Positions 47,679 through 62,139 of a stretch of DNA of 64,000 nt are shown here, piece by piece. Each line of letters starts with the position of its first letter. Within the stretch, counting starts at the first letter, position 1. The DNA is from Maribacter algicola (lineage in GTDB: Bacteria; Bacteroidota; Bacteroidia; Flavobacteriales; Flavobacteriaceae). The stretch lies in the NCBI RefSeq assembly GCF_003933245.1, contig NZ_QUSX01000002.1, positions 1,054,001 through 1,118,000 of the forward strand. Reading direction: 5' to 3'. The position numbers and the translations under genes were made by a program. The notes beneath the pieces are model-generated. The model made no database searches. It had not been told where the DNA came from and worked only from the letters and a program-made list of their open reading frames with translations.

Positions 47679-49085
47679 ATGAAGAGAAATGAGACCATAG
47701 TAGCCTTGGCTACCGCCTCAGGAGCGGGTGCCATTGCCGTTATTAGAGTTTCAGGAAAAGAAGCGATTACCATTACCTCCAAGCTATTTAAATCCGTTAG
47801 TGGAAAAAATCTCGAGACACAAAAAACACATACTGTTCACTTGGGACACATAGTGGATGGTAACAAGATTCTGGATGAAGTCCTCGTTACCGTCTTCAAA
47901 TGTCCGCACTCATACACCGGTGAAAACGTTGCGGAAATATCCTGCCATGGTTCGCCCTATATCCAGCAGGAAATCATCCAGCTTTTTTTAAGGAATGGTT
48001 GCCGCATGGCCCAAGCCGGTGAATTTACATTGCAGGCCTTTCTTAACGGCAAAATGGATTTGAGTCAGGCGGAGGCCGTTGCCGACCTAATAGCATCGGA
48101 CAATGAGGCCAATCATCAAATTGCCATGCAACAAATGCGGGGCGGGTTCAGTAATGAAATCCAGAAGTTAAGGGAACAACTGTTGAACTTTGCCTCCTTG
48201 ATAGAACTGGAACTGGACTTTGCCGAAGAGGACGTAGAATTCGCTGATCGCACGCAATTTAAATCCTTGGTCAGTCGAATTCAAGAAGTATTGAAGAGGC
48301 TGGTGAATTCCTTCGCTGTGGGGAATGTTATAAAAAATGGTATCCCAGTGGCCATTGTGGGCGAGCCCAATGTTGGAAAGTCCACTTTACTGAATGCCCT
48401 GTTGAACGAAGAACGTGCAATCGTTTCGGACATTGCAGGAACTACTAGGGACAGCATTGAAGATGAAATTTCCATTGGAGGAATTGGCTTTCGGTTTATC
48501 GATACTGCCGGGATTCGTGAAACCGATGATATCGTGGAAAGTATCGGTATCAAAAAAACATTTGAAAAAATAGCTCAGGCTCAAGTAGTTATTCTTTTAG
48601 TTGATGGCGGCACTTTAAATCATGTAAATTCCACAGGCGATAAACTCCGACAAATAAAAGCGGAGGCAGAAAAAATAAGGGACAAGAATCCTGGAAAACC
48701 CTTTTTGTTGTTGATAAATAAATCCGATATTCTTTCTGGAGAGGCCAAGACTAATATTCAGTCAAACTTGGGAGAAGCTCACTTCATTTCGGCAAAAACC
48801 GGAAACGGTGTAGAAGATCTACAAAACCATTTACTACAATTTGTAAATACGGGTGCCTTGCGAAACAATGAGACTATCATCACGAATAGCCGTCATTACG
48901 ACTCCCTCCTAAGGGCGTTGGAATCCATTGAAAAAGTTCAGATGGGCCTAAGTGAAGAACTTACCAGTGACCTTATGGCCATAGATGTTAAGGAAACCCT
49001 TTATCACCTAGGGGAAATAACGGGAGAGGTCACCAATGATGAGCTTTTGGGAAATATATTTGCCAATTTCTGCATCGGGAAATAA
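47679..49085 (+). CDS. mnmE: tRNA modification GTPase MnmE
   Basis: 468 residues from the ATG at 47679 (MKRNETIVALATASGAGAIAVIRVSG), the family start; the frame opens earlier at 47607. N-terminal formyl-folate-binding domain, helical domain, G domain with GEPNVGKST, DIAGTTRD, DTAG and NKSD, and the C-terminal FCIGK whose Cys is essential in the family. With MnmG it modifies U34 of some tRNAs. The final codons form attL of the element starting here, so the current 3' end may be element-supplied. Confidence 0.96.
   Translation: MKRNETIVALATASGAGAIAVIRVSGKEAITITSKLFKSVSGKNLETQKTHTVHLGHIVDGNKILDEVLVTVFKCPHSYTGENVAEISCHGSPYIQQEIIQLFLRNGCRMAQAGEFTLQAFLNGKMDLSQAEAVADLIASDNEANHQIAMQQMRGGFSNEIQKLREQLLNFASLIELELDFAEEDVEFADRTQFKSLVSRIQEVLKRLVNSFAVGNVIKNGIPVAIVGEPNVGKSTLLNALLNEERAIVSDIAGTTRDSIEDEISIGGIGFRFIDTAGIRETDDIVESIGIKKTFEKIAQAQVVILLVDGGTLNHVNSTGDKLRQIKAEAEKIRDKNPGKPFLLLINKSDILSGEAKTNIQSNLGEAHFISAKTGNGVEDLQNHLLQFVNTGALRNNETIITNSRHYDSLLRALESIEKVQMGLSEELTSDLMAIDVKETLYHLGEITGEVTNDELLGNIFANFCIGK
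49068..49085. repeat. attL: direct repeat at the mnmE 3' end
   Basis: TTCTGCATCGGGAAATAA encodes Phe-Cys-Ile-Gly-Lys-stop. Its copy at 60869-60886 differs at three positions. Confidence 0.85.
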
Positions 49086-49095
49086 CCGCTGGTTT

Positions 49096-49122
49096 TATTT
49101 GGTCTCATTTGGCTTCATTTGA
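49096..49122. repeat. Phased ATTTGG/CATTTG motifs near attL
   Basis: TATTTGG, CATTTGG and CATTTGA occur with exactly 10-base spacing (49096, 49106, 49116), one helical turn apart. Similar phased copies are at 53427-53494. Confidence 0.6.
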
Positions 49123-49194
49123 TTGCAAATCAGATAGTTAAAAAAAAGTTTTATCCTCGTTTATTTTCCTTTTTCCACCCATTTTCATACTTTT

Positions 49195-49309
49195 AGTACA
49201 CCTCTGGTACACCTCGAACCCAATTTTAACAAAAAGGTGTACCAAAGGTGTACCAATTTCACCTCAGGTACCGCAGTTATTATCATTGAATTTTTTTTCG
49301 AGGTGTACT
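49195..49309. promoter_or_regulatory. int: Arm-type integrase site cluster, left end
   Basis: AGTACACCTCTGGTACACCT (49195-49214) is a tandem pair; an inverted pair of AGGTGTACCA lies at 49235-49255; GAGGTGTACT (49300-49309) is an exact inverse of the first decamer. The cluster ends 18 bases before the integrase ATG. A 19/20 copy of the first pair lies at the other end of the element. This could serve integrase arm binding and autoregulation. Confidence 0.65.
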
Positions 49310-49327
49310 CATTTAAAAATTAAGGTT

Positions 49328-50467
49328 ATGATTATAAGTCTAAAGCGGAAAAAACTTAAAAGTGGAAAGTCCAGTTTGTACCTCGAATTCTATGGTGGAA
49401 GTCGAAAGGACAAAAATGGCACGAAAAAGCATGTTAGGAGTTTTGAATATCTGAAACTATACGTCTATGATAAACCTCAAAATGCGGAGCAACAACGAAA
49501 GAACAAAGAAGCGTTGAAATTGGCCGAAAGTATTCTTACCATTCGTCAGTCGGATTTCATTATGGGCAAGTATAACATGAGGAATGAAAAGAAAGGGCAA
49601 ATCACTTTTTTGGATTTCTTTCGCCAGATGAAAGAAGAACGCTACGAAAGCAATGCCAATTATGGCAATTGGGATGCAGCCCTAAAACATATCGAAAGAT
49701 ACTGCCCAGAGCATGTACAATTAAAAGATATAGATTCCGATTTTGTGAAAGACTTCAAGAAATATTTGGATACCAAAGCCAAGACGAAAGGAGGCACTCC
49801 CCTATCCCAGAATTCAAAATACACCTATTTCAATAAATTCAGGGCTGCACTTCGTGAGGCCTATAACGAAAGTTTTATCCAGCACGATGTTGTTAAATCG
49901 GTAAAAAGTTTTGAGCAAGCTGAATCGGTACGGGAATATCTTACCCATTCCGAATTACAGGCGTTGTCCCATGCTCATTGCAAATATCCTGTTTTAAAGA
50001 ATGCCTTTATTTTTAGTTGCTTAACTGGACTACGATGGAGCGACATTGATAAAATGAAATGGTCAGAGGTCAGGGATGAAGATCAGGGTGCACGGGTCAT
50101 CTTCCGGCAGAAGAAAACCGATGGATTGGAATACCTCTATATTTCAGGACAGGCAAGAAAATTGCTTGGTTATCGAAAAAACCCAAGCGACAAGGTATTT
50201 AAAGGCCTTAAATATGGTGCGCATTTTAATGCCCAAATCCTTTCTTGGTGCATGCGGGCAGGTATAACCAAACATATCACTTTCCATAGTGCTAGACATA
50301 CCAACGCCGTTTTACTGCTGGAAAACGGAGCGGATATTTATACCGTTTCAAAACGACTTGGGCACCGTGAAATTCGCACTACGGAAATCTATACTAAAAT
50401 AATAGATGAAAAAATGAAAGCGGCGGCAAACATGATCCCAGAATTGGAGATGAACATTGCAGTTTAA
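49328..50467 (+). CDS. int: Tyrosine recombinase / integrase
   Basis: 379 residues from the ATG at 49328 (MIISLKRKKLKSG); the upstream TTG start at 49286 would put arm-type sites inside the gene. N-terminal arm-binding domain (about 1-90), SAM-like core-binding domain (about 100-200), catalytic domain with Arg in LTGLRWSDIDK (about 240), HSARH (about 320-324), His in RLGHRE (about 346) and the nucleophile Tyr in TEIYTKI (about 355). It should integrate and excise the element at the mnmE end. Adjacent to attL, as usual for site-specific islands. Confidence 0.95.
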   Translation: MIISLKRKKLKSGKSSLYLEFYGGSRKDKNGTKKHVRSFEYLKLYVYDKPQNAEQQRKNKEALKLAESILTIRQSDFIMGKYNMRNEKKGQITFLDFFRQMKEERYESNANYGNWDAALKHIERYCPEHVQLKDIDSDFVKDFKKYLDTKAKTKGGTPLSQNSKYTYFNKFRAALREAYNESFIQHDVVKSVKSFEQAESVREYLTHSELQALSHAHCKYPVLKNAFIFSCLTGLRWSDIDKMKWSEVRDEDQGARVIFRQKKTDGLEYLYISGQARKLLGYRKNPSDKVFKGLKYGAHFNAQILSWCMRAGITKHITFHSARHTNAVLLLENGADIYTVSKRLGHREIRTTEIYTKIIDEKMKAAANMIPELEMNIAV

Positions 50468-50678
50468 AGCAGCCAGCCAATTTGGGTCTAATGGAATTTT
50501 ATAAAAGGTTACTTTGTTAGACTATTAAAAAAGAGGAAAATGAGATAAATATGTGTTATACTACTTCTATAAGTCTTGCAAGATGGCCGTTTTATTTGGA
50601 TTCGTGAGGAAAATGCACTGTTTACCGTGAATTGTTACAAAATAAAAAATCGAAGCCCTTTAGTTGATACAACAATTT

Positions 50679-52976
50679 CTACTCAGTGCTTATTTCCTCG
50701 ATTGGATTTTTTCTGGTCGCTTTTATTGTTTGCATACTTAAAGTCAACACAGAAATTAAAATTACAATAAGGCCCGATAGAATAAAAATCCATATGCTGA
50801 GATCAATCCTGTTTGCGAAACGTGTAAGCCATTGATTCATCAAATAATAACCCATGGGGATTGCTATTATGAAAGCTAGGAGTATACGTTTGCTAAACGC
50901 GTAAGTCAACAAATTCACAATATCTCTTGTCGAGGCTCCTAGTACTTTTCGAATTCCCATTTCTTTAGATCTACTTTGAGTAACTGCCCATGACAAAGCA
51001 AACAAGCCGAAACTTGCCAATATCATACTTATAATTGCAAAAGTCACAATGATATTATAGAAAAATGTGTCCTCTTTATACTTCTTCATGAGTTCTTCTT
51101 CAAGAATTTTGTAAGAAAAGAAATAATCTGGAAATAGTTCTTTCCATTTTGTTTCAATTTCCGGAAGAAGTAATCCTAAGTTAGTGCCTTGGTAATCAAT
51201 GAGTAATAAAGGTCCATCCTCATAGTAAGCTATTATAACTGGCGGAATCTCCTCTTTAAAAGAACCACATGTAAAATCTTCCACAACACCAACAATTAAA
51301 TCCTCAGTACCGGGCACTTTTTTTCCAATTGGATTACTTAGGTCAAACTGACGGATCAGTTTTTGATTGACAAGTTTACCGTTACGTACCGCCGAAGGCA
51401 AACTACCTTCGATTAAATTTAAATTAAGCGTTTCAATGAAATCTTTATCACCCCCAAATAAAAAGGGTGTATAATACTTTTCATTTTCAAGTTCATATCG
51501 CACCATTCGATTTCCGGATATCGGGTTTCCACCACTAACGGTTACACCTTTAACATTTGGCAACTGAGCAATTTTCTGTTTGAGGACAGGAAGAACTTTC
51601 GAGTATTTCGGGTCGGGGGTATCAAGTTGAATAATATTTCGGTTGAAACCGAGCGGAGCATTCTCAATATAGTTCATTTGTTCAATAATCGAGATGGAGC
51701 ATATTGTTAGTGTAATTGAAATAATGAACTGGAAAGTGAAGAGAAATCCACTAAAGGTAACCTTGGAGGATTCGTTTTTCATTAAATTGACAGGTTTCAT
51801 CCTCCATTGTTTGGATACGGAAAATGTTACTACCAAGGCGGCCGAGAAAAGAATGACTAAACCTATATATGAAGCAACCTCTATATTCAACAAATACTCT
51901 GGTGATAGGTTCGCCTCAAAAACAGAATTGAATACAGGAATTGTTAGAAGTGTTATAATAAGCGATAATAAAAAACTAGTAATAATGTAAAATCCCGCTT
52001 CTGCTATTGAGAAGTAGAACAATCCTTTTTGAGTAATTCCAAGAGTTTTTTTAATACCCATTTCCTTTCTTCTATCCTGCCAAAAAAGCAAGAATAGATT
52101 TATGAAATTAAAGCTTGCAATAAAGAGAATCAAGCCGCAAACTATATACCCGACCTTCAAAAAGGTAGGGTTTCTTGTTTTCATGTATTTCATTTTATTT
52201 TCAGCGGTGAAATAAGAATTACTTAAGGGCTCAAAGAAGTAGTCCATTTTGCCAGGGCCAAGTAATCCTGGTCGTATATTATCTGCCTTGATCTTGCTTT
52301 GCAAGGCTTCCGTAGAACTATTGCTCGTCATTAAAGCATAGCTGGGTCCGCCATTCCATCTATTTTCAAAATTGGAATGATGCACTAAGGCATCAAAAGA
52401 TAAATGACTATTTGAGTTCGACTTTTTTGCAATAGCCGAAACGGTCATTTGCTGGATAGTATCGGGAGTAATTAAAGAAACAGACTTGCCGACCGCTTCC
52501 GAATCCCCAAATAAAATAGCAGCCTTTTCTTGTGTGAGTACAATATTACCAGGTGACAATCCCCCACTCTTATTTCCTTGACCAATAGGGAAATCAAAAA
52601 CTGAAAAGAATGACTCATCGGCCAACAAAATATTTAAATCATTAAAAATGGTTTTTTCAACCTCAATTGAAGCTTTATCTAAATTTCCAATCTGACTTAC
52701 ATCGGCAATTTCTGGATAATTGTTGGTTAAATAGCCATAAAGAAACTTGGGTATATAAGGAATGCGGCCACTTTCGCCAAATGGATCATTACTGAATACT
52801 TGGAATATCCTATCTTGCTTGGAATGAAATTTATCCGTATTTGTTTCATAAACAAGAAATGATATGAGGATATTGCAACATACAAAAGCCACTACTAGGC
52901 TCAATAGAATAATAGAAGTATATATTTTATTTGCCCACAAATTCCTGATTATAAGTTTAAGATTATGACGTATCAT
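50679..52976 (-). CDS. FtsX/MacB-type ABC transporter permease (orphan cargo)
   Basis: 765 residues: membrane helix (about 20-42), MacB-like periplasmic domain (about 50-270), three helices (about 280-400) with the FtsX segment DRRKEMGIKKTLGITQKGLFYFSIAEAGFY, then helix, second periplasmic domain and a second FtsX block (SRSKEMGIRKVLGASTRDIVNLLTYAF). Such permeases normally pair with a cytoplasmic ATPase and often a membrane-fusion protein; neither is in the element. It is opposite to the integrase and mobilisation genes, so it is a separate unit. Could use a host ATPase; substrate unknown. Confidence 0.9.
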   Translation of the reverse strand: MIRHNLKLIIRNLWANKIYTSIILLSLVVAFVCCNILISFLVYETNTDKFHSKQDRIFQVFSNDPFGESGRIPYIPKFLYGYLTNNYPEIADVSQIGNLDKASIEVEKTIFNDLNILLADESFFSVFDFPIGQGNKSGGLSPGNIVLTQEKAAILFGDSEAVGKSVSLITPDTIQQMTVSAIAKKSNSNSHLSFDALVHHSNFENRWNGGPSYALMTSNSSTEALQSKIKADNIRPGLLGPGKMDYFFEPLSNSYFTAENKMKYMKTRNPTFLKVGYIVCGLILFIASFNFINLFLLFWQDRRKEMGIKKTLGITQKGLFYFSIAEAGFYIITSFLLSLIITLLTIPVFNSVFEANLSPEYLLNIEVASYIGLVILFSAALVVTFSVSKQWRMKPVNLMKNESSKVTFSGFLFTFQFIISITLTICSISIIEQMNYIENAPLGFNRNIIQLDTPDPKYSKVLPVLKQKIAQLPNVKGVTVSGGNPISGNRMVRYELENEKYYTPFLFGGDKDFIETLNLNLIEGSLPSAVRNGKLVNQKLIRQFDLSNPIGKKVPGTEDLIVGVVEDFTCGSFKEEIPPVIIAYYEDGPLLLIDYQGTNLGLLLPEIETKWKELFPDYFFSYKILEEELMKKYKEDTFFYNIIVTFAIISMILASFGLFALSWAVTQSRSKEMGIRKVLGASTRDIVNLLTYAFSKRILLAFIIAIPMGYYLMNQWLTRFANRIDLSIWIFILSGLIVILISVLTLSMQTIKATRKNPIEEISTE

Positions 52977-53110
52977 AGAATGTTCAATAATTTAAAATAT
53001 CCTATAATTAATGCTTGTAGCATAACTCACATTAATTATATACTTCTTTATTAAAAATAACAAATCCCTTTATAGTAACATATATCAAGGAATAAAATTA
53101 ATCTAGAGCT

Positions 53111-53148
53111 AACTTCACAGCAATGAGCTTTGCTCATTTCGTGAAGTT
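53111..53148. repeat. Two-part stem-loop upstream of the ABC permease gene
   Basis: AACTTCAC pairs with GTGAAGTT and AATGAGC with GCTCATT around a TTT loop. It lies in the 665-base gap between the divergent ABC permease and Xis-like genes and may be an operator or attenuator. Confidence 0.6.
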
Positions 53149-53302
53149 CTATTCATAGATTTTCACTCCTGCTATTAAGTCGATATAGTAATTGATATTG
53201 ACTAGAAATAAAATTTCTTTATTTCTTTGGTCCCAAGAAGCAAATCTTTAATATAATATGACAGCATTCATCAAAAAAATGTAAACATTCTTCAAATAAC
53301 AA

Positions 53303-53449
53303 TTATGTAATGGCCTGCTCCAAAACAATATTTTCGACCCTTTTTAAACCAGAATTTTCATATTCAGCTTTCTTAAATTGTTGATAACTCAAAATTCTTC
53401 CATTTTTAGCAAAAGTCAAATGATACCATTTGAAGCCATTTGAAACCAA
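53303..53449 (-). CDS. Possible 48-residue protein or gene fragment
   Basis: A frame open from a TTG at 53449 to TAA at 53303 encodes NGFKWYHLTFAKNGRIL, then YQQFKKAEYENSGLKRVENIVLEQAIT, which has clear protein-like composition for intergenic DNA. No ATG is available, and the CATTTGA repeats overlap its first codons. It may be a remnant of a longer gene or a small protein using TTG. No family recognised. Confidence 0.35.
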   Translation of the reverse strand: MVSNGFKWYHLTFAKNGRILSYQQFKKAEYENSGLKRVENIVLEQAIT

Positions 53450-53494
53450 TTCTAAAATACGACATTATATATGGTTTCATTTGAATTCATTTAA
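53416..53494. repeat. CATTTGA iteron-like cluster upstream of the Xis/primase genes
   Basis: CATTTGA at 53427 and 53437 (10 bases apart), CATTTGA at 53478 and CATTTAA at 53488 (10 bases apart), with an inverted copy TCAAATG at 53416. The GGTTTCATTTGAATTCATTT block resembles the left-end block at 49101-49120 (17 of 20 bases). Confidence 0.6.
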
Positions 53495-53641
53495 TGTAAC
53501 TTATTGTATATCAGATTTTTGTGAATAACTAAAATCAAAAAACCAACTTTCCCCTTTCCTTTATTTTACCTTTATCCCAAGAATTCTTTAAAAGAAAACA
53601 AAAGCGCTTTTGTTCATTTCGTAACCCTAAAAAGGAAACCA

Positions 53642-53929
53642 ATGGACAATTTTTTAATCCTTGAACGACTTGATCGTTTAGAACGGCTTTTAACAGCTCA
53701 TAAGGAAGTACTCACCTTTGAGGAAACCTGTGACTATACCGGAATATCGAGAAGCTATCTGTACAAATTGACAGCATCTGGAAATATCCCGCACTCCAAA
53801 CCCAACGGTAAACTGATATTCTTTGAAAAGGCCAAACTCAATACATGGCTTTTACAAAACGGCCGAAAGTCAAGGTCCGAAATCGAAACGGAAGCCCTGA
53901 ACTACACCTTCAAAAACAAACGTAGATGA
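53642..53929 (+). CDS. Excisionase-like helix-turn-helix protein
   Basis: 95 residues. HTH_17/excisionase-type domain: LTFEETCDYTGISRSYLYKLTASGNIPHSKPNGKLIFFEKAKLNTWLLQNGRKS. Such proteins bend DNA at att sites for excision or act as regulators of element genes. Its stop overlaps the next start (ATGA, 53926-53929), so it is coupled to the primase-like gene. Confidence 0.85.
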   Translation: MDNFLILERLDRLERLLTAHKEVLTFEETCDYTGISRSYLYKLTASGNIPHSKPNGKLIFFEKAKLNTWLLQNGRKSRSEIETEALNYTFKNKRR

Positions 53930-54783
53930 AAAGGGAACAAATAAGTTGGGAAAAAGTCCGTGCCGTTTGCATCGTAAAAACGATGGCAAAGGCCGGACAC
54001 TTTCCGAAAAGGGAGACGGAGAAAGAAGCTTGGTTCCTAAGTCCGTTTCGGCCGGAAACCCATGCCTCTTTCAAGGTGTCTAAAATCAAGAACCTATGGT
54101 TCGACCACGGGGCGGGTTTTGGGGGAAATGTTCTCGATCTGGTTGTCCGGTTTTACGACTGCCGCCTTCGAGACGCGCTCGACTTCTTGTCGGACGTACC
54201 GCCCTCTCTTTCTTTTCACCCGCAACCGTTTATTCCACCATCCAACGATAAATTGATTATCAAAAGTGCCAATCCTATTTGGCACTACGGACTGAAAGTT
54301 TACTTGAATAAACGAAACATAACCCTAGAAACCGCAAAAAAATATTGCAAGGAAGTCCATTACTCCCGAAAAGGAAACCACTATTTCGGTATCGGACTAC
54401 AGAACGATTCCGGTGGCTGGGAACTTCGAAACATGTACTACAAGAGTTCTTCCTCCCCAAAGGACATTACCTATTTTTCAAACGGATGTATGCAGTTAGT
54501 GGTGACGGAAGGAATGTTCGATTTTTTAACGGTCACCAATTTCTGTCACGATAAAATGTCCTTTCTCATTTTAAACTCGCTCTCCTTTCTTAAAAAGGCC
54601 ATGAAACACATAGAAATGTTCAAGGATGTGAAACTGTATCTCGACAATGATAAAGCAGGAAAAGAAGCGACAAATTGGTTGATGCAAAACCATAAAGGAT
54701 GCATCGATAAATCTTATTTATATAAAGACTACAAAGATATTAATGAGATGTGGATAGGGACAAATGGAGGATACGGAAGGTAG
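53926..54783 (+). CDS. Toprim-domain primase-like replication protein
   Basis: 285 residues. The N-terminus resembles the CHC2 primase zinc domain in layout (WFLSPFRPETHASFKVSKIKNLWFDHGAGFGGNVLDLVVRFY) but lacks the cysteines. The C-terminal toprim domain has Glu in VVTEGMFDFLTV and the Asp pair in LYLDNDKAGKEA, followed by DYKDINEMW. Found in many Bacteroidota mobilisable elements, presumably to prime element replication during transfer. No helicase partner is encoded here. Confidence 0.85.
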   Translation: MKREQISWEKVRAVCIVKTMAKAGHFPKRETEKEAWFLSPFRPETHASFKVSKIKNLWFDHGAGFGGNVLDLVVRFYDCRLRDALDFLSDVPPSLSFHPQPFIPPSNDKLIIKSANPIWHYGLKVYLNKRNITLETAKKYCKEVHYSRKGNHYFGIGLQNDSGGWELRNMYYKSSSSPKDITYFSNGCMQLVVTEGMFDFLTVTNFCHDKMSFLILNSLSFLKKAMKHIEMFKDVKLYLDNDKAGKEATNWLMQNHKGCIDKSYLYKDYKDINEMWIGTNGGYGR

Positions 54784-54810
54784 CTGTAAAAATGCGTCTG
54801 AGTAAGAATT

Positions 54811-54865
54811 CAAGATGTGTCATTGTCATGACAAATCTTGCTTTTGCTCCCGTTGGTCGCAAAAG
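54811..54865. other. Candidate oriT A: two stem-loops upstream of the Mob genes
   Basis: A 13-bp stem with one mismatch (CAAGATGTGTCAT / ATGACAAATCTTG, 4-base loop, 54811-54840) is followed by CTTTTGC ... GCAAAAG (54841-54847 / 54859-54865). They lie 80 bases before the MobC-like gene, a usual place for an origin of transfer. The first could also be a terminator for the primase gene. Confidence 0.4.
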
Positions 54866-54944
54866 AATGGGAATTGTTAAATGAGTTTTTGATATATGAA
54901 TTGGCAAAGACTAATTCGATTGAAAAAGAATAAAAAAACATAAA

Positions 54945-55241
54945 GTGAAAAAGGAGTTTGTACAATTTCGATGTTCCATTTATGAGAAGAAACTGCTCAA
55001 AATCAAGGCCAAAAAGAGCGGACTTACCATAAGTGAATATTGTCGCCGTGCCGCCTTTGACCATAGAATTGTCGAACGGTTTTCCAATGAACAAATCGAT
55101 GTTTACAAACTGTTGGTCCAGTATCAAATCAATTTTAAGCGTATAGGGAATATGTACCGAAAACGAAATCCAAAATTGGCTGATGAAGTGGTACAACTGG
55201 CCAATGAAATACGTAAACATCTTTACAATTTCAAGAAATGA
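54945..55241 (+). CDS. MobC-like relaxosome protein
   Basis: 98 residues from a GTG start. N-terminal ribbon-helix-helix-like part (KEFVQFRCSIYEKKLLKIKAKKSGLTISEYCRRAAFDH) and a helical C-terminus (YKLLVQYQINFKRIGNMYRKRNPKLADEVVQLANEIRKHLYNF) with the RIGNMYR-type segment of MobC proteins. It should help the relaxase open oriT. Stop and relaxase start overlap (ATGA). Confidence 0.85.
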   Translation: MKKEFVQFRCSIYEKKLLKIKAKKSGLTISEYCRRAAFDHRIVERFSNEQIDVYKLLVQYQINFKRIGNMYRKRNPKLADEVVQLANEIRKHLYNFKK

Positions 55242-56107
55242 TAGGCATGGGAAAATCCATATCGCACACAGGAGCTTCTATGGGTTATGGGTGGAACGAG
55301 GAGAAAGATGCCAAGGTAGTTTATCGCGAACATTTAGCAGGCGACAATCCCAAAGAAATTACACAGGAATTCAAAATCATTCAATCGCAAAACCATCGAT
55401 GTAAAAAGAATACGTTGAGTTTCGTCCTAAGTCCCACAATAGAAGATGGGCAAAAATTAAAAGAAAAAGAACTGAAGGAAATTACAGAAAGATTCATCAA
55501 AGAAATGAAGCTACAAGAACGACAAGCCATCGCTTTTGTACATCAAGATAAAAGTCACTTACATATCCATTTATATGTAAACCGAATCGGTTTTGACGGC
55601 AAGGCATACAAAGACAACTATATCGGAAAACGCAGCCAACAGGCGGCAGAAAAAGTAGCTCAACAAATGGGATTGACAACGGTAAGAGAAGTGCAACAAG
55701 AAAAACTGAACGAAATTAAAAATGTACGCCAGGAAATAAAACATGTCCATGAAAAGGTTATTGCAGAAATGAAACCCAAAGATTTTGACCAATACATCAA
55801 GTATATGAAACAAAGGAATGTAGAAGTCATTCCAAGCATCAATAAATCGAATCAGTTGCGGGGTTTCCGTTTTGAATACAACGGCCAAAACCTTAAAGGA
55901 AGTGAAGTACATCGTTCAATGTCAATGGGGCGAATCGCCGAACGGATTGGTTTTGATAGAAATGTTGCCCAAAAAATAGCCAAAGAAAACGCACTATCAA
56001 TGCTAGGAAAAACTGTAGGGTTAACGCCCACCTTGGCAGCGAATATTGCAAAAAAGGCAATTAAAATGACTGTTAAGAAAACAATTGGATTAGGAATGGA
56101 AATATGA
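55238..56107 (+). CDS. Relaxase / mobilisation nuclease
   Basis: 289 residues. The metal-binding histidine motif HLHIHLYVNR is at about 107-116 with another His at about 102 (FVHQDKS). The N-terminal SISHTG and Tyr-containing GYGWNEE segments include candidate nucleophile tyrosines. The C-terminal half is helical and basic. It should nick oriT and pilot the single strand during helper-mediated transfer. Length suits the short relaxases of Bacteroidota mobilisable elements. Confidence 0.9.
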   Translation: MIGMGKSISHTGASMGYGWNEEKDAKVVYREHLAGDNPKEITQEFKIIQSQNHRCKKNTLSFVLSPTIEDGQKLKEKELKEITERFIKEMKLQERQAIAFVHQDKSHLHIHLYVNRIGFDGKAYKDNYIGKRSQQAAEKVAQQMGLTTVREVQQEKLNEIKNVRQEIKHVHEKVIAEMKPKDFDQYIKYMKQRNVEVIPSINKSNQLRGFRFEYNGQNLKGSEVHRSMSMGRIAERIGFDRNVAQKIAKENALSMLGKTVGLTPTLAANIAKKAIKMTVKKTIGLGMEI

Positions 56108-56111
56108 TATC

Positions 56112-56567
56112 ATGGCAAAACTAGACGAAATAGCAGAATTATTAACGGAAGAAATCAAGGAATTCGAAAACTCGGTCAGTCGCCTGGAAGAACTGCAAGC
56201 TTTTTTGATGAACTATAAAATAAAGCCCGACACCTCTGATATTGACTTTATTTTGAGACAATACAATGACCATCAAAAGAAAGCAATCGAAGACCAACAC
56301 AAACTAATGGGGAACGTAATCTACTATATTAAAAAGTCAATGACTTTTCCGAAATGGGCAACAAAGCTGTTTTGTGGTCTCTTAGTAATTATCTTTCTGG
56401 TATTGGGGTATTCCGTTTACAAAGTCTCCCGAATCCCTGAAATAAGGCAAGTAGCTTTTGGTCAGGGAGAGGAAAAAGCGGTTGGGCATTTCAGGGCATT
56501 CTTCGAGGCCAGCCCAGAGGCCAGCGAACTCTACCAAAAATGGCGAGAACCCCAAAGCAAAAAGTAG
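56112..56567 (+). CDS. Membrane protein of the mobilisation operon
   Basis: 151 residues, starting 4 bases after the relaxase stop. Helical N-terminus (LDEIAELLTEEIKEFENSVSRLEELQAFLMNY), one membrane helix (about 93-113, TKLFCGLLVIIFLVLGYSVYKV) and a short outside tail. Position suggests a mobilisation accessory protein, possibly docking the relaxosome at the membrane. No activity motif. Confidence 0.75.
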   Translation: MAKLDEIAELLTEEIKEFENSVSRLEELQAFLMNYKIKPDTSDIDFILRQYNDHQKKAIEDQHKLMGNVIYYIKKSMTFPKWATKLFCGLLVIIFLVLGYSVYKVSRIPEIRQVAFGQGEEKAVGHFRAFFEASPEASELYQKWREPQSKK

Positions 56568-56627
56568 GGTGCGCCCTATCCGGTTTTTGCTTCACGCTAA
56601 TCTGCCGGAATCGCTACAAAAACCGGA
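56565..56627. other. Candidate oriT B: GTGCGCCCT core and 11-bp inverted repeat
   Basis: TAGGGTGCGCCCTA (5-bp arms) at 56565-56578 contains GTGCGCCCT, which I recall as the nic core of IncQ-type oriT. It is followed at once by an 11-bp inverted repeat (TCCGGTTTTTG / CAAAAACCGGA, 56579-56589 and 56617-56627). It overlaps the end of the mobilisation operon. The large stem could otherwise be an operon-end terminator, although no T-run follows. Confidence 0.45.
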
Positions 56628-56800
56628 CAGGATCCACGCGCAAAGTTTTTGGGGTAAGATTTGGGAACTAAAATAAAGTATGACAAGATGATATTCTGCC
56701 TACATACCTCGTTAATAAGTGCTTACAACTAAAAACTATTGGACTCATTCCTTTGCTTAAATTTGGAAGTAATGACGAATTATGATTAATCGGTGTTGCA

Positions 56801-57622
56801 ATGACCAATAAGTTTAATAATATACAGTTTCCTACTCATCTTATCCCCGTGGGATATATTGCGTTGGTTTGTCTTGGATATTTTGTTAAATCAATCTATT
56901 ACCAAAAATTTGATATTGAAATAGAAAACTACTTAAATTTTCAGGAGTATCTCTTTATTTTTTTACCGATTGGTTCGGGCATAATCGTGGCTCTAATAGC
57001 AATTACAGCTTTTTTTGGCGGACTTTACGTTATTACCACAGACTTTGTGGACAAGAACCCAACCAAGGAAAAATTGAGGCGAACCAAGCCACCTTCTACC
57101 CAAAATGATTGGAAAATAAAAAATAAAGTTTTGAGATTTTTAATCAGGGCGAAAGACATATTCCAAGGAGTACTAATATTTTCTCTTTTTTTCGGGCCTA
57201 TAATTTTGCTTCTTTACTATGGAATCACAAAAGATATTAGCGGAAGAGTAGTTGTGCTTACCTCCCTTATATGGGGATTCTCGATTATGTCATTCTATTT
57301 TTTTGGTAACTTAAGAAAAGAAAAAGAACCTTGGAAGAATCTCATACTACTTTACGCCTTCCTGATTTCCATGTGTCCTATGATTATAGACATTAAAATG
57401 GATAAGGCCGATTTAATCTTATCAGGCGATGCGAATAAATCCGTTAAACTCTTATTACAGGAAACAATTATATCAACGAACGACTCTCTCATTTATATAG
57501 GACAAACCAAAGATTTCCTTTTTCTAAGAGATTTGAAGGCAAACGGAAATCATATTTATAATAAGAAAGATATAAAAGAATTGATTTTTACTGACCTTCG
57601 AAAAGATAAGCGAGCAGACTAG
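56801..57622 (+). CDS. Unrecognised multi-pass membrane protein (cargo)
   Basis: 273 residues with about five membrane helices (about 13-32, 49-75, 118-140, 150-170, 178-197) and a C-terminal soluble tail of about 75 residues containing KADLILSGDANKSVKLLLQETIISTNDSLIYIGQTKDFLFLRDLK. No known family recognised. It stands alone between the mobilisation operon and the AbiE pair, at lower GC than the men genes. A membrane effector in a defence island is possible but unsupported by motif. Confidence 0.7.
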   Translation: MTNKFNNIQFPTHLIPVGYIALVCLGYFVKSIYYQKFDIEIENYLNFQEYLFIFLPIGSGIIVALIAITAFFGGLYVITTDFVDKNPTKEKLRRTKPPSTQNDWKIKNKVLRFLIRAKDIFQGVLIFSLFFGPIILLLYYGITKDISGRVVVLTSLIWGFSIMSFYFFGNLRKEKEPWKNLILLYAFLISMCPMIIDIKMDKADLILSGDANKSVKLLLQETIISTNDSLIYIGQTKDFLFLRDLKANGNHIYNKKDIKELIFTDLRKDKRAD

Positions 57623-57757
57623 TTTAATTTACGAGCATCGATTGACAACAATTGATACTTACTTATTAAATCTAAAAAGGTGATTTGTCAATTAATAGAT
57701 ATTGTTGCCTTCATTTAATAGCAAATCAATAAATTATTGAAAGGTATTAGTCTTTCT

Positions 57758-58735
57758 TCATAGCCCTATTGACCAGTCAACTTTTTGCAAACGCTGCGAC
57801 ACTTCAATAATTGTGGACAAAACTTCCTTTTCATTTGGAAATTCTCCATAAACCAAAAACTTAAAATCATTCTGATAGGTGTCTTTAAGTTGGTTCCACG
57901 TTTCTTCAGGTTCTTTAAAAATCAACGCTTCTTTTGGGTGGTGCTTTAACCAATCGTTGTTGTTCTTAAAACTTTGCAAGTCATCATGGGCAACTTTTAG
58001 GAGCATTGCATCAAAAGCATCTGAAGTAAAAAACGCTTGAACCGTTTCATCTTTAAGTAGTTGATAAATATCGTACACATGCCTGATTTTAGCATTGAGG
58101 TCGATAATTGGTTTTTCAGTATATGAAAACCGTACCAAACTCATTATCTTTTCACAAAGCGTTCTTCGAGAATCCAATACAAGAGCTTCAAAGGGCAATA
58201 GGTTGTATTCTTCCGCCAATGTCGTTTGGTTATTGGCATTCATCATATCATAGATATAGGTATTCAGGACTCGTTTAGTGTGTGGTTCAAAATAGCCCAA
58301 CCAAGTTGCTTCTATGATAATTGCATCCCTTATCTGCCCGTAATTTCCTTTGAAAATTTTGGGGTAGTTATATGCTATCTTTCGAATCATTCCCATTTTG
58401 TTGGTAATCCCTTCCATTTCTACTTCCACGAATGGTGAGGTTATTTCCTTGGTAATTTTTTTGAGCTTCGTCTTTAGTTGGTTCCCTGTTTCTTCTTCTC
58501 TTCGTATTACGACTAAATCAATATCCTCGGAAAAACGTTCAATGAACTTATAACACTTTGACAAGGCCGTGCCACCCTTAAATATGACTTCATCTTTAAT
58601 AGCACTATTAAAGATTAGTTTTAAGGCATAGCATACCCAATAGTCCTTTTCGATGTAGATATCTGAAATACCCATCTGTTGTGCGGTTGCTTGTACCGCT
58701 TGCCTGAAAAGTTCTTCGTTTTCGTGCAACTTCAT
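57758..58735 (-). CDS. abiEii: AbiEii-family nucleotidyltransferase toxin
   Basis: 325 residues. The nucleotidyltransferase core is clear: VIFKGGTALSKCYKFIERFSEDIDLVVIRRE (GG-T/S-x and the DxD-like EDIDLV), then a conserved Lys/Arg-rich region and the YDIYQLL motif seen in AbiEii proteins. AbiEii toxins arrest growth by modifying nucleotides or tRNA, giving abortive infection. Its ATG overlaps the antitoxin stop (4 bases), the classic coupled arrangement. Confidence 0.9.
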   Translation of the reverse strand: MKLHENEELFRQAVQATAQQMGISDIYIEKDYWVCYALKLIFNSAIKDEVIFKGGTALSKCYKFIERFSEDIDLVVIRREEETGNQLKTKLKKITKEITSPFVEVEMEGITNKMGMIRKIAYNYPKIFKGNYGQIRDAIIIEATWLGYFEPHTKRVLNTYIYDMMNANNQTTLAEEYNLLPFEALVLDSRRTLCEKIMSLVRFSYTEKPIIDLNAKIRHVYDIYQLLKDETVQAFFTSDAFDAMLLKVAHDDLQSFKNNNDWLKHHPKEALIFKEPEETWNQLKDTYQNDFKFLVYGEFPNEKEVLSTIIEVSQRLQKVDWSIGL

Positions 58736-59463
58736 TTTATATTCCAGTATTTAGCATTTGACAACACCTTTTCAGAAATATCAAAATTATAAACCGTTAT
58801 TGGGTTTAAACTATCTTGAAGGTCTCTTATTTCAATCTCTGCCTGGCAATCAATCTCTCTTAACAATGCACCCAATAAAGCTCTGGTTGCGGGGGAATAT
58901 TTAAAAGCCAATTTTATAAGTTTTATCTGTTCGCTAGTTTTCAATTCGCGCAATAATGCCATAAATCGAATACAACTTTTATCAATATTGGTATCCGGTA
59001 TTTTCTTTACGTAACGCATGGCATCCAATAATCGTAATAACGGAATATTTTCTTTATTTATCGTATTCTTTTGTTTGATGAATGAGATTCTAAAACGGCC
59101 TCTTTTAAAAGATGGCCTTATTTCCCGTTTACCAATCTGTATCGTATTACTTACTTGTGTGGTAAGCCCTAGGGAATTATAAACGCTATACCCCGTAATA
59201 TATCCGACAAGTTTGCCATCTTCCTCCAACAAGTCTTTTACAATTTGGTGTTGGTCTGGCAACAAAGTACCAAATACGGTTTCTTGCGGCTTGAAGTATT
59301 TACCTTTGGATAGCTTGTTTATCTTACCGGAAGCAGCCATTCTATTTAGATGTTTAATGATGGCTTCCCTCCTAGTCACCTCGTTCATAAAATCCATATA
59401 GGTAAACACATATCCTTTGGGCAACTTATTAATCTTATCTTCAATGTATTCAGAGGTTTTCAT
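58732..59463 (-). CDS. abiEi: AbiEi-type antitoxin / transcriptional regulator (DUF6088-like)
   Basis: 243 residues. N-terminal winged helix (YIEDKINKLPKGYVFTYMDFMNEVTRREAIIKHLNRMAASGKINKLSKGKYFKP) and an antitoxin C-domain (YITGYSVYNSLGLTTQVSNTIQIGKREIRPSFKRGRFRISFIKQKN ... LLRLLDAMRYVKKIPDTN). AbiEi proteins repress their own promoter by binding inverted repeats and neutralise AbiEii without direct binding (type IV). A perfect 11-bp inverted repeat lies 30 bases upstream of the start. Confidence 0.87.
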   Translation of the reverse strand: MKTSEYIEDKINKLPKGYVFTYMDFMNEVTRREAIIKHLNRMAASGKINKLSKGKYFKPQETVFGTLLPDQHQIVKDLLEEDGKLVGYITGYSVYNSLGLTTQVSNTIQIGKREIRPSFKRGRFRISFIKQKNTINKENIPLLRLLDAMRYVKKIPDTNIDKSCIRFMALLRELKTSEQIKLIKLAFKYSPATRALLGALLREIDCQAEIEIRDLQDSLNPITVYNFDISEKVLSNAKYWNIK

Positions 59464-59492
59464 TGGAAACTATTTCTACAAAGGTATTTAAA

Positions 59493-59524
59493 ATGTCCAG
59501 TTTATTTATTAAAAAACTGGACAT
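59493..59524 (-). promoter_or_regulatory. Candidate AbiEi operator (11-bp inverted repeat)
   Basis: ATGTCCAGTTT (59493-59503) and AAACTGGACAT (59514-59524) are exact inverses 10 bases apart, 30 bases upstream of the abiEi start. Known AbiEi proteins autoregulate through inverted repeats in this position. Confidence 0.6.
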
Positions 59525-59564
59525 ATTTTAATAAGTGCTGATAACTTTAGTTGCATTGTTTCAT

Positions 59565-59615
59565 TAGTCCCTGTAACTTGCGAGTGTCTTTACCACTCGC
59601 AAGTTACAGGGACTA
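59565..59615. repeat. Perfect 22-bp inverted repeat, 7-base loop
   Basis: Arms 59565-59586 and 59594-59615 match exactly; loop TCTTTAC; core CCCTGTAACTTGCGAGTG. It is GC-richer than its surroundings and not followed by a T-run. Confidence 0.85.
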
Positions 59616-59688
59616 TAGCATTGCATGACTATTTTAATCTGAAGTATCCCATTAATACCTTCTTCCAAGAAATCTAAAAGGCCAACGA

Positions 59689-59716
59689 GTCAAGTTTTTT
59701 GCGCAAAAAACTTGAC
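59689..59716. repeat. 28-base perfect palindrome
   Basis: GTCAAGTTTTTTGC is directly followed by its exact reverse complement with no spacer, which favours a protein-bound dyad or cruciform over an RNA hairpin. Confidence 0.85.
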
Positions 59717-59773
59717 ATAAAACTACTGAAATAAAAAAGCATTTATACCATATAAGTCCATGTTCCTGCAGCA

Positions 59774-59854
59774 GTTGGAAAACCTATGGTTTTCCAACAC
59801 CCTCGGCACCGTACATAACCGCATGGAGCGTGAAAAAACGCCCCATGCAGTTAT
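59774..59854. repeat. Two further stem-loops before the zinc-ribbon gene
   Basis: First: GTTGGAAAACC / GGTTTTCCAAC with a TAT loop (59774-59798). Second: ATAACcGCATGGaGCGT / ACGCcCCATGCaGTTAT (59815-59854) with two mismatches and a 6-base loop. Both are in the 487-base gap 59464-59950, which holds five dyads and no gene. Confidence 0.8.
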
Positions 59855-59950
59855 CTTGCCCGCGCTCAATTATAACTTCACAGCCATTCCTATTTAGCCA
59901 AAACAAGAAATAGATTTAGGTTGTATCTTTAATGAGAAAACACTTGAAAA

Positions 59951-60262
59951 GTGCCACAAAAACGAACAGAACATATTATCCATCCTGATGAAATTGAAAT
60001 CGGGCCGTTCCAATTGCAGTTAATGTTTGGGAAATCTTTTAAAGAAGATTTTGAACTGTACTTAGGTAATATATTTTGTGAATGTGAAATTCCCACTAAA
60101 AGATTAGTTCACTATAAGAGTTATCTCAATAACTTAAATGATGTCGCATTAAAAGGTAAATGCAGCGGTTGTGGGGGTATTGCGGTCAGATACATAGAAA
60201 CCGGAGAGCGGCAAGGAATCGATAGAATCGCAAATAAAATCAGGTCTCTCAACAAAAGCTAA
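59951..60262 (+). CDS. Unrecognised zinc-ribbon-like small protein
   Basis: 103 residues from a GTG start. The first 40 residues (HIIHPDEIEIGPFQLQLMFGKSFKEDFELYLGNIF) lead into cysteines 43 and 45 (CEC) and 71 and 74 (CSGC), a CxC...CxxC set able to bind one zinc. No known family recognised. It lies 19 bases before a HigA-like HTH gene, where a HigB toxin would normally be, but it does not look like RelE/HigB. Possible toxin, antitoxin cofactor or regulator; function unknown. Confidence 0.7.
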   Translation: MPQKRTEHIIHPDEIEIGPFQLQLMFGKSFKEDFELYLGNIFCECEIPTKRLVHYKSYLNNLNDVALKGKCSGCGGIAVRYIETGERQGIDRIANKIRSLNKS

Positions 60263-60281
60263 TTTCAAGATACAAGGATAC

Positions 60282-60641
60282 ATGAAATCTATAACCCATA
60301 AACAATACGTCAAAGCTAATCTTCGATTGGAGGAATTAATAAAAGTTGTAGATGATAGCACTCCATCAGAAAACCCATTAACTAAAGAATTTTTAGAGGT
60401 CAGTAATCTGATTGAGCAATATGAAGAAGTCCACTACCCTATCGGCATGCCAAGTTTACGAGAAGTAATCGAATTGAGAATGCTGGAAATGAATCTGAAA
60501 ACAAAAGATTTGGCCGCTCTTTTAAACACGAGCGAATCTAAAATAAGTGGGTATTTGAAAGGCGAAAGCGAAATAACTTTTAAGCAAGCCAAAATAATTC
60601 ATGAAGAATTAAACATTAATGGCGATATTATTCTGCAATAA
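60282..60641 (+). CDS. HigA-like HTH protein (COG5499 type)
   Basis: 119 residues. Layout as in HigA antitoxins: a helical N-terminal part (HKQYVKANLRLEELIKVVDDSTPSENPLTKEFLEVSNLIEQYEEVH), then MPSLREVIELRMLEMNLKTKDLAALLNTSESKISGYLKGESEITFKQAKIIHEELNI, a helix-turn-helix. These are antitoxins and autorepressors. Partner is probably the zinc-ribbon protein upstream; no RelE-like gene is nearby. Confidence 0.8.
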   Translation: MKSITHKQYVKANLRLEELIKVVDDSTPSENPLTKEFLEVSNLIEQYEEVHYPIGMPSLREVIELRMLEMNLKTKDLAALLNTSESKISGYLKGESEITFKQAKIIHEELNINGDIILQ

Positions 60642-60810
60642 TTGATTTGAATTTACAATTTCCAACATTGACCAATCCATCAAATTCAAAATTTACAATT
60701 TCAAATAAGGGGTATTTTTAGCTCAAAATCACACAATTTTCATACCTTTAAAGTGTTAAAGTTTTGCGCGGGAATATTTTCGAATATTTACAGGAAAACA
60801 TTAAAATATA

Positions 60811-60830
60811 AGTACACCTCGGGTACACCT
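60811..60830. promoter_or_regulatory. Arm-type integrase site, right end
   Basis: AGTACACCTCGGGTACACCT matches the left-end copy at 49195-49214 in 19 of 20 bases and lies 41 bases inside attR. The rest of 60642-60870 shows nothing else recognisable. Confidence 0.65.
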
Positions 60831-60868
60831 TTGCCTTCTAAAGCCCGATGCTACAAGGGTTAGTTACT

Positions 60869-60886
60869 TACTGTATCGGGAAATAG
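60869..60886. repeat. attR: copy of the mnmE 3' end
   Basis: TACTGTATCGGGAAATAG retains Cys-Ile-Gly-Lys-stop codons in register and has no mnmE sequence before it. It ends 20 bases before the stop of the next host gene. Confidence 0.85.
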
Positions 60887-60905
60887 AGGCAAAAACCGGC
60901 ATGTA

Positions 60906-61115
60906 CTAATTTTCGATATCAATAAAGCTATTGACCGAGGTATACAGTTTGAACGTGTTGAACAACCTATTCTGAAATTTTCTGGCAATCTCAGGGTCGT
61001 TGAAAATCCATGCTTCCGATATGGATGGGGAAAGTACCAATTCGCCAAGAAGATACTCCACAAAATAGGAGCCTGATTCTGTAAGCAGCACAAAGTTAGG
61101 TCCGGTACATTTCAC
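60906..61115 (-). CDS. 69-residue hypothetical protein
   Basis: GTG start at 61115 (KCTGPNFVLLTESGSYFVEYLLGELVLSPSISEAWIFNDPEIARKFQNRLFNTFKLYTSVNSFIDIEN). The frame is open a further 20 codons upstream without an ATG, so the start is uncertain. Composition is strongly protein-like. It would have been convergent with mnmE before the element inserted. No family recognised. Confidence 0.55.
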   Translation of the reverse strand: MKCTGPNFVLLTESGSYFVEYLLGELVLSPSISEAWIFNDPEIARKFQNRLFNTFKLYTSVNSFIDIEN

Positions 61116-61265
61116 AATTGGGTGATGTCGAATACTTTGAAGGTAAAAATAATCACTTTCCCGTAATTATCCACATTCTAGAATTAGAATTTCCGATGAC
61201 TAAACCAATACACTAAAAAAAGGACCTTTTTAACCGATTTTTCTTTAATCCATTCCCTATTGTCG

Positions 61266-61769
61266 CTATCTCAAAAACGACTCGCTATCGTCGAACCTAA
61301 CAAAATGACAGGTATACCCATTGGGGTTTTTCACTAGGTAATCTTGATGATAGTCTTCGGCAGGCCAAAAGGTGGTCCATGGTTCCAAGGTAGTTACCAC
61401 TTTGGATGGCCATTTCCCCGATTGGTCCACCAAACGGATAACTTCCTCCGCTTCTACCCTTTCCTCCTCGTTTTGATAGAATATGGCCGACCTGTAACTG
61501 GAGCCGCTATCGTTTCCTTGTCGGTTTACCGTGGTGGGGTCATGCATCCGAAAGTAAAAATCCAACAACTCCTTAAACGAAGTTTTTTCTGGATCGTATG
61601 TAATCTCAATACCTTCGGCATGGCCTGGATGGTTATGATAGGTTGGGTTTTTGTTCTGGCCACCTTGATATCCCACCTCTGTAGCGACCACCCCGGGACG
61701 CTTCCTAAAAAGGTCTTCCATGCCCCAAAAACATCCTCCCGCTATATATGCTTTTTTATACTCCTTCAT
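61266..61769 (-). CDS. msrA: Peptide methionine sulfoxide reductase A
   Basis: 167 residues. The catalytic motif GGCFWGMED is at about 12, with conserved [29 protein letters not shown] and YRSAIFY (FYxxHDPTT region reads [10 protein letters not shown]). It reduces methionine-S-sulfoxide in proteins using thioredoxin. There is no signal peptide, so it should be cytoplasmic. Near selO on the same strand. Confidence 0.95.
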
Positions 61770-61877
61770 AGACTTATTAATAGCTATTGTAAACAGATTT
61801 ACACAAAGATACGCCCCATCTGGAAATTTTAGTCTTCTTTGAATTTTTGGTCAAATTGAAAACGTGTAACCACTTCC

Positions 61878-62129: not shown

Positions 62130-62139
62130 TACCTGTATT

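Follow-up and report, generated by a model that had tools for sequence, protein, structure and literature searches.

The 3′ end of the host gene mnmE (trmE/thdF) of Maribacter algicola is occupied by an 11.8-kb element, bounded by short repeats at 49068–49085 and 60869–60886 of the 64,000-nucleotide stretch analysed here (the window, whose coordinates are used throughout; the host chromosome is that of a 4.1-Mb genome). We hold with high confidence that this is an integrative and mobilizable element (IME) of ~11.8 kb, whose tyrosine integrase joins a circular attP to the last codons of mnmE – restoring these codons, most likely with strand exchange in the Cys-Ile pair – and which would be mobilized in trans. 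It combines a site-specific integrase, att repeats and a corresponding empty site with a relaxase of its own and no recognised mating-pore genes. The integrase belongs to a large group that is widespread in Bacteroidota and whose members mostly sit at the mnmE end. The window element is one case of something common, a recurrent mnmE hotspot whose scale was missed in the preliminary description of this DNA.

Boundaries of the element and the empty site

That description had pointed to a repeat pair at the mnmE stop codon, 11.8 kb apart, in which the Cys-Ile-Gly-Lys-stop (CIGK-stop) codons are kept, and both points hold. TTCTGCATCGGGAAATAA (49068–49085) and TACTGTATCGGGAAATAG (60869–60886) share 15 of 18 bases and differ at three. 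With up to three mismatches allowed, TTCTGCATCGGGAAATAA occurs at these two places only on both strands of the 64 kb, against a mean of 0.09 matches in shuffled windows, none of which (0 of 100) reached two. The 3′ end of mnmE up to 49085 reads TTC TGC ATC GGG AAA TAA (F-C-I-G-K-stop) and the right repeat translates as Y-C-I-G-K-stop, so the codons are kept from Cys onward. The mnmE gene at 47679–49085 is the sole full-length match in the window’s genome.

The proposal would have fallen, by its own account, if there were no strains without 49086–60868 or if an empty site had other boundaries; a genome of the same genus (G016) has an empty site with exactly the same boundaries. There, the mnmE stop is followed directly by sequence like that of the window from 60887 onward, the match starting at the first base past the stop and extending over ~1412 bp at 89.7% identity (91.7% over the first 798 bp). 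Among 36 Maribacter genomes in which mnmE was sought, 33 gave a match at E ≤ 1e-100, and the 800 bp past the right repeat of eight elements were compared with 25 unoccupied mnmE-downstream regions (from 24 genomes, G002 contributing two). The right flanks of G021 and G003 each match nine of the 25, those of G014 and G018 seven each, that of the window one (G016) and that of G033 one over a short stretch, while those of G008 and G031 match none of the 25. For each of the flanks of G021, G003, G014 and G018, the three best matches start no more than 20 bases from the right repeat and no more than 50 bases from the unoccupied stop, except for G032, in which the match starts ~900 bp further on. 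The empty site thus gives the insertion point directly; attP, its circular partner, we infer.

The integrase group in Maribacter and beyond

Integrases of this group sit at mnmE in nine of the 36 Maribacter genomes (the window’s, G003, G008, G013, G014, G018, G021, G031 and G033). They score at least 356 bits and the other integrases of the genus at most 167, apart from smaller pieces of the broken gene of G014. Measured from repeat to repeat, the elements span 8.3 kb (G033), 9.6 kb (G018), 11.8 kb (the window), 26.5 kb (G021), 33.3 kb (G008), 35.3 kb (G003) and 57.0 kb (G031), with two consecutive intervals of 15.3 and 7.6 kb in G014; for G013, no right end was found before the end of the contig. 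The int, HTH_17, primase, MobC, relaxase and DUF6730 genes of the window element all have counterparts in G018, at 72–95% protein identity. A second integrase of the group lies on another contig of G021, with a CIGK-stop repeat near the contig start (G436, taken as the same genome).

Several Maribacter elements carry phage-defence or metal-efflux genes, which gives the search for new defence genes in marine Bacteroidota a defined target. The G008 element has a NACHT protein, and a scan of 10 cargo proteins, four of them without a match, showed a type I restriction protein in G003 and a PDC-M62A/PtuA-like ATPase in G021. In G014 (L039/L047), three repeats, lying 0, 15.3 and 22.8 kb from mnmE, delimit two different islands in a row, the first with a broken window-type integrase and the second with a G003-like left end and no recognised integrase. 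The interval in G008 (M. flavus; L035/L049) is interrupted between its integrase and mob module by a block of native genes, among them an msrA–selO stretch, and by an IS110-type transposase, which suggests rearrangement or capture. These native genes rule out reading the 33-kb interval as a simple element; its att pair is retained among the 41 pairs analysed below.

A scan of a species-genome collection confirmed 334 relatives of the integrase, of which 80 were kept and, with the window, make up 81 loci. Five of the 80 are Maribacter genomes already counted (L067, L078, L082, L121 and L128), and the set takes in Dysgonomonas (L105) of the family Dysgonomonadaceae. In 78 of the 81 loci, an mnmE end or a CIGK-stop repeat lies within ~1 kb upstream of the integrase: 73 have a CIGK-stop repeat 120–420 bp upstream, and five more have an mnmE end within ~1 kb (L090, L093, L094, L104 and L135). 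The exceptions are L073, whose integrase lies at the edge of a contig, L120 and L139. Along with the G016 empty site and the nine occupied Maribacter genomes, these loci back the original suggestion that the IME is site-specific for the mnmE 3′ end.

Within the Flavobacteriaceae, a related integrase (E ≤ 1e-60) is found in 95 of 395 genomes and 73 of 203 genera, with mnmE just upstream on the same strand in 45 of 49 loci examined (30 fetched by search, the window included, and 19 chosen down the score range, G131 entering twice). Across the phylum, 53 of 392 genomes match (query alignment A1, second lineage included), and 19 of the 29 loci looked at besides the window are at mnmE, some of them in other orders and classes. 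Viral contigs yielded five integrase matches – three at 41–46% identity and two at 23–25% – of which the first three have contigs that start at or just before the integrase.

Distant hosts can carry near-identical integrases, as seen among 12 pairs of loci chosen for comparison. L062 (Ulvibacterium) and L064 (Croceitalea) are 99% identical in integrase DNA and 66% in mnmE DNA, which speaks for a recent transfer between genera; the corresponding values are 100% and 81% for L121/L128 and 97% and 63% for L134/L138, and for L074/L101 82% in both. The contigs of L102 and L092, as well as G126, G226 and G317, show three consecutive CIGK-stop repeats on one strand within 70 kb, and such rows in other genera suggest tandem arrays. 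The L133 contig has two CIGK-stop repeats, with the integrase after the second.

In a tree built from 69 chosen integrases (52 with the label mnmE and 17 with the label other), three changes suffice to explain the mnmE label, compared with a mean of 15.3 after shuffling (0 of 500 shuffles as low), although near-copies inflate this clustering and one long branch (L202) is unsure. The mnmE label was given to L139 on account of its bracketing repeat pair and to L233 on account of a contig-start repeat; the rows counted as other include three viral-contig rows without a known target and 11 other Maribacter integrases, so placed solely by their position away from mnmE. The window integrase has the domain set Arm-DNA-bind_5, Phage_int_SAM_5 and Phage_integrase, groups with the mnmE-site relatives in the tree and lies just downstream of mnmE. 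The tree fits few origins of mnmE targeting, with exceptions: a single origin with a later switch in the branch L191–L193 is the simplest reading, and two or three origins are possible.

Strand exchange, SGI1 and alternative readings

Where the strands are exchanged can be approached through 41 attL/attR pairs, each consisting of an attL and the first repeat downstream of it within that contig and on that strand (the nearest being taken also at L092, L102 and L128, where several follow). Kept out were loci with ends on different contigs or without a second match (e.g. L061, L062, L063, L068, L077, L089 and L103), L133 (second in a row), L139 (repeats 112 kb apart), the G014 array, and the second-lineage elements of G003 and G033. 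Only two of the 41 pairs have identical ends, the other 39 differing; attL position 2 is always T, and attR position 2 is A in 29. At position 6 (the Cys wobble) they agree in 39 of 41 (shuffled mean 24.8) and at position 9 (the Ile wobble) in 36 of 41 (21.6), values that none of 5000 shuffles reached. For positions 3, 12, 15 and 18, the counts out of 41 are 27, 21, 21 and 29, against shuffled means of 20.5, 16.1, 20.3 and 25.8 (P 0.04, 0.05, 0.54 and 0.17, respectively), all these P values being less than strict because the set contains related hosts and elements.

When similar element ends in different hosts are compared (77 non-independent pairs, two involving L133), the attL mismatch is 0.51, 0.39, 0.35, 0.43, 0.16 and 0.00 at positions 3, 6, 9, 12, 15 and 18, respectively. 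attL is thus host-like at the left and element-like by positions 15–18, with a block at 6 and 9 shared by both ends, a pattern that would most likely place the exchange region within TGYATHGG – the Cys-Ile codons – with a blur at position 12. Near-identical elements are present in TGC and TGT hosts (L062, L064), yet the ends of any one element almost always agree at this codon, so a wobble mismatch must be either tolerated or rewritten in the overlap on entry. How an integrase deals with synonymous changes within its exchange region could be studied at this hotspot as a natural experiment.

The same gene end is the target of Salmonella genomic island 1 (SGI1), as the preliminary description had noted. 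According to published work, SGI1 and SGI1-related elements use the last 18 bp of mnmE/trmE/thdF – the same 18 bp, the E. coli gene ending in TTCTGTATTGGTAAGTAA – with a proposed 7-bp overlap that includes positions 5 and 9 and with cleavages placed between bases 3 and 5, and 5 and 11 (Doublet et al. 2008; PMC2297512). The exchange interval proposed there coincides with the one that we would assign to the window group. The trmE end is a known hotspot with tandem arrays of SGI1-related elements in Gammaproteobacteria (PMC9035990). A review of IMEs names trmE twice, for SGI1 and MGIVchHai6, both of Gammaproteobacteria (PMC5704250), and work on dusA integrases mentions mnmE a single time, with reference to SGI1 (PMC4482086). 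Our own search for literature on the mnmE site in Bacteroidota, by title and abstract start, found none among the records listed, a weak negative given that most subscription papers and preprints lay outside its scope.

Elements of E. coli at the same site (RM9088, MFDS1022581 and tcmA_3), which we take to be P4-like, resemble the window element in having the integrase just 3′ of the mnmE stop on the same strand, and differ in that no relaxase is annotated in the three stretches viewed. PSS-15 is a further E. coli mnmE-flank match, known as a match row only. Two of the three viewed loci (L149, RM9088; L150, tcmA_3; L151, MFDS1022581) carry reverse transcriptases, one annotated as retron St85. 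Of the 5374 matching E. coli genomes, 759 lack any one place that covers 80% of the K-12 mnmE-end query, and in two of these that were viewed the match ends at the mnmE stop codon and a different locus follows (annotated as ShET2/EspL2 family).

Could the window element be a diverged offshoot of the SGI1 family, and not a separate lineage at the same site? The shared 18-bp target and the exchange interval proposed for both would speak for it (PMC2297512), yet we regard it as very improbable. The window element comes from another phylum and has Bacteroidota-type integrase domains: the mnmE-site integrase of E. coli RM9088 has Arm-DNA-bind_3 and Phage_int_M domains, in place of Arm-DNA-bind_5 and SAM_5, and shows no significant similarity to that of the window (E = 0.05). 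The earlier characterization of the element as apparently unrelated to SGI1 may be right, judging by domain architecture and by this one E. coli integrase rather than by IntSGI1. The SGI1 backbone includes tra homologues. It further comprises int/xis, rep and sgaC/sgaD (PMC9035990), and the SGI1 mobilization proteins are MpsA/MpsB (PMC9299015), as opposed to the MobA/VirD2-type relaxase and NikA-like MobC found here. Pfam recognised no rep or type IV secretion system (T4SS) family in the window element’s 12 scanned open reading frames (ORFs), a search in which SGI1 proteins were not used as queries.

Less improbable, though still unlikely, is a decayed island that was inserted site-specifically long ago and has since lost excision and transfer. 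The two 18-mers of the window element differ at three positions, a cargo permease is lodged between int and the mob module, and the broken integrase of the G014 relative means that decay does happen at the mnmE site. Against such decay, the integrase, HTH_17, primase, MobC and relaxase genes are all open frames that match their families, differing att ends are the rule anyway (39 of 41 pairs), and this gene set recurs in G018. The 60869 repeat might instead be left over from a duplication of the mnmE end or from homologous recombination, with nothing inserted by an integrase in between; its shortness and imperfection (15/18) would allow this, but the G016 empty site, the same arrangement in 41 elements of different hosts and an integrase that in nearly all loci lies just within the mnmE copy make it scarcely credible. 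Insertion of a still equipped IME by its own integrase accounts for these observations best.

A wider proposition has our guarded preference: that an old Bacteroidota integrase group, of one or very few origins, is dedicated to the last codons of mnmE; that it drives IMEs and integrative and conjugative elements (ICEs) with defence and metal-resistance genes, sometimes in tandem, across several orders; and that it and the SGI1 family have come by convergence to use one 18-bp target and one exchange window over the Cys-Ile codons, where wobble bases are tolerated or rewritten. The conserved C-terminus codons would then be a near-universal landing pad. The mnmE gene is nearly universal and its C-terminal C-I-G-K is conserved (as it is in the hosts compared), so a site read through these codons is available in most bacteria.

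A number of observations weigh against parts of the main IME account. Well-supported branches of the tree force at least two label changes; in 200 bootstrap trees a single change never suffices, and the mnmE rows never form one clade. The branch L191–L193 is nested in the mnmE-site group, yet its members are not beside mnmE in the fetched DNA, possibly as the result of a later switch of target site; 10 of the 29 phylum-wide loci likewise lack mnmE in the fetched 1.5 kb. The attL/attR pairs are a selected set, since for most of them the attR pattern allows only synonymous changes, and the variability of attL position 12 among similar elements does not suit a clean element-derived right half. 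A DUF4138 search of the window’s genome for a helper returned no match, which shows little because control genomes were silent too. Excision, the circular form, the helper, transfer, oriT function and the role of the cargo are what we infer. Two stricter formulations fail: that the group is never found elsewhere than at mnmE is ruled out by L191–L193 and the 10 phylum-wide loci, and that attL positions 10–18 are wholly element-derived, as printed for SGI1-related elements (PMC9035990), is at odds with position 12. The L192 and L193 integrases are 370 aa long.

Gene content and transfer functions

The features of the window element and its flanks are collected in Table 1. As the preliminary description had it, the integrase lies next to attL, and MobC, relaxase and primase genes are inside (all recognised by Pfam), with no match to a T4SS family among the 12 ORFs scanned between the att repeats, two of which lack any Pfam match.

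Table 1. Features of the mnmE-site element and its surroundings (window coordinates)
Feature	Position	Strand	Basis
mnmE (trmE/thdF), host gene; last 18 bases = attL	47679–49085	+	Pfam MnmE_helical, TrmE_N, MMR_HSR1
attL = TTCTGCATCGGGAAATAA, F-C-I-G-K-stop	49068–49085	+	repeat search, empty-site comparison
ATTTGGTYTC-type short tandem repeats just inside attL; possible integrase or Xis sites	49097–49127	+	
GTACACCT(C) repeats, both orientations; candidate arm-type integrase sites	49193–49308	.	
Tyrosine integrase	49331–50467	+	Arm-DNA-bind_5 + Phage_int_SAM_5 + Phage_integrase
Cargo MacB/FtsX-like ABC permease	50679–52976	-	Pfam
HTH_17 protein, putatively excisionase-like	53642–53929	+	homologues in G018, G008, G013, G031, G021 elements
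Small Toprim primase	53926–54783	+	Pfam Toprim_2; homologues in G018, G014, G021
oriT-like double hairpin (putative oriT)	54811–54865	+	compensatory changes in relatives
MobC, NikA-like relaxosome protein	54945–55241	+	Pfam
MobA/VirD2-type relaxase	55238–56107	+	Pfam
DUF6730 protein	56112–56567	+	also beside relaxase in G018, G008, G014, G021
Hypothetical protein, no Pfam match	56801–57622	+	
AbiEii toxin (type IV toxin-antitoxin, phage defence)	57758–58735	-	Pfam, PADLOC
AbiEi antitoxin (DUF6088)	58732–59463	-	Pfam, PADLOC
Hypothetical protein, no Pfam match	59951–60262	+	
HTH_3 protein, putatively antitoxin-like	60282–60641	+	Pfam
GTACACCTCGGGTACACCTTT at right end, inverted relative to left-end repeats; candidate arm sites	60812–60832	+	
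attR = TACTGTATCGGGAAATAG	60869–60886	+	repeat search
Original mnmE downstream flank: convergent 69-aa ORF, msrA; directly after mnmE in G016	60887–62298	.	

In the mechanism that we propose, the tyrosine integrase would recombine a circular attP with the last codons of mnmE. As attP would carry a synonymous copy of the C-I-G-K-stop codons, the host protein is left unchanged and the second copy of the codons marks the right end; going by the 41 elements, the sequence to the right of the exchange, beside the integrase, would be the element’s and that to the left the host’s. Exit probably proceeds via the integrase and the HTH_17 protein. Relaxase and MobC would nick the hairpin site at 54811–54865, transfer would use a T4SS supplied in trans – an ICE-like relative being known in the genus – and AbiE, perhaps with the right-end HTH_3 gene, may help retention in the host. 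Such an integrase/attP pair is a candidate for gene-preserving chromosomal insertion in laboratory Flavobacteriia.

An alignment of relatives makes ATG 49331 the most likely start of the integrase, rather than TTG 49286, and shows all of the R..K..HxxR..H..Y residues, the catalytic residues of tyrosine integrases. Repeats resembling the ATTTGGTYTC type recur in many relatives. GTACACCT-like words flank the interior of the window element on either side, and several relatives have similar words, ACACCTC or TACCTC, at their two ends; these are candidate arm-type integrase sites, and shared direct 8-mers exceed the simple-shuffle mean in 13 of 15 elements compared.

The probable oriT (origin of transfer) lies 5′ of mobC, where CAAGATG-TGTCAT-TGTC-ATGACA-AATCTTG is followed by a second hairpin (54811–54865). 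The folding z-score is -2.56 for 54815–54885, with 3 of 200 shuffles folding as well. The outer arms of the hairpin, sought with a regular expression, are present in 21 of 36 records with a mobC match and absent from 15 (two genomes being listed twice), and in the 21 the inner arms covary, for example as TGTCAT/ATGACA, TGTGCC/GGCACA and TGTGGC/GCCACA. The 57-kb relative in G031 has genes for a TraG/VirB4-type ATPase, DUF4138, a coupling protein and heavy-metal efflux as well as a SMODS gene, and therefore looks like an ICE.

Canonical Bacteroidota IMEs such as NBU1, NBU2, Tn4399 and Tn4555 use a tyrosine integrase. They have a MobP relaxase and are mobilized by ICEs with the Bacteroidota mating pore (PMC5704250), and the window element is like them in having its own relaxase and no mating pore, and unlike them in its target, the mnmE 3′ end. 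The Flavobacteriia ICEs ICECleSHZ29 and relatives target tRNA-Met or tRNA-Glu genes and likewise insert at 3′ ends with short direct repeats (PMC12561888); the window element, in contrast, has no recognised transfer apparatus, its ICE-like relative at mnmE being that of Maribacter spongiicola (G031/L128).

The permease at 50679–52976 had no blastp match in the eight other Maribacter intervals compared. The HTH_3 protein at 60282–60641 is called antitoxin-like because in G018 and G008 a 98-aa gene precedes its homologues. A 68-bp stretch at 56599–56666 recurs, 95.6% identical, directly after mnmE in the Maribacter genome G028 (L033), and a second copy of this small repeat is found in the window’s own genome (C1:1458572–1458675, 78% identity). 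Between abiEi and the right-end genes, at 59565–59615, is a perfect 22-nt inverted repeat with a 7-nt loop, possibly a terminator.

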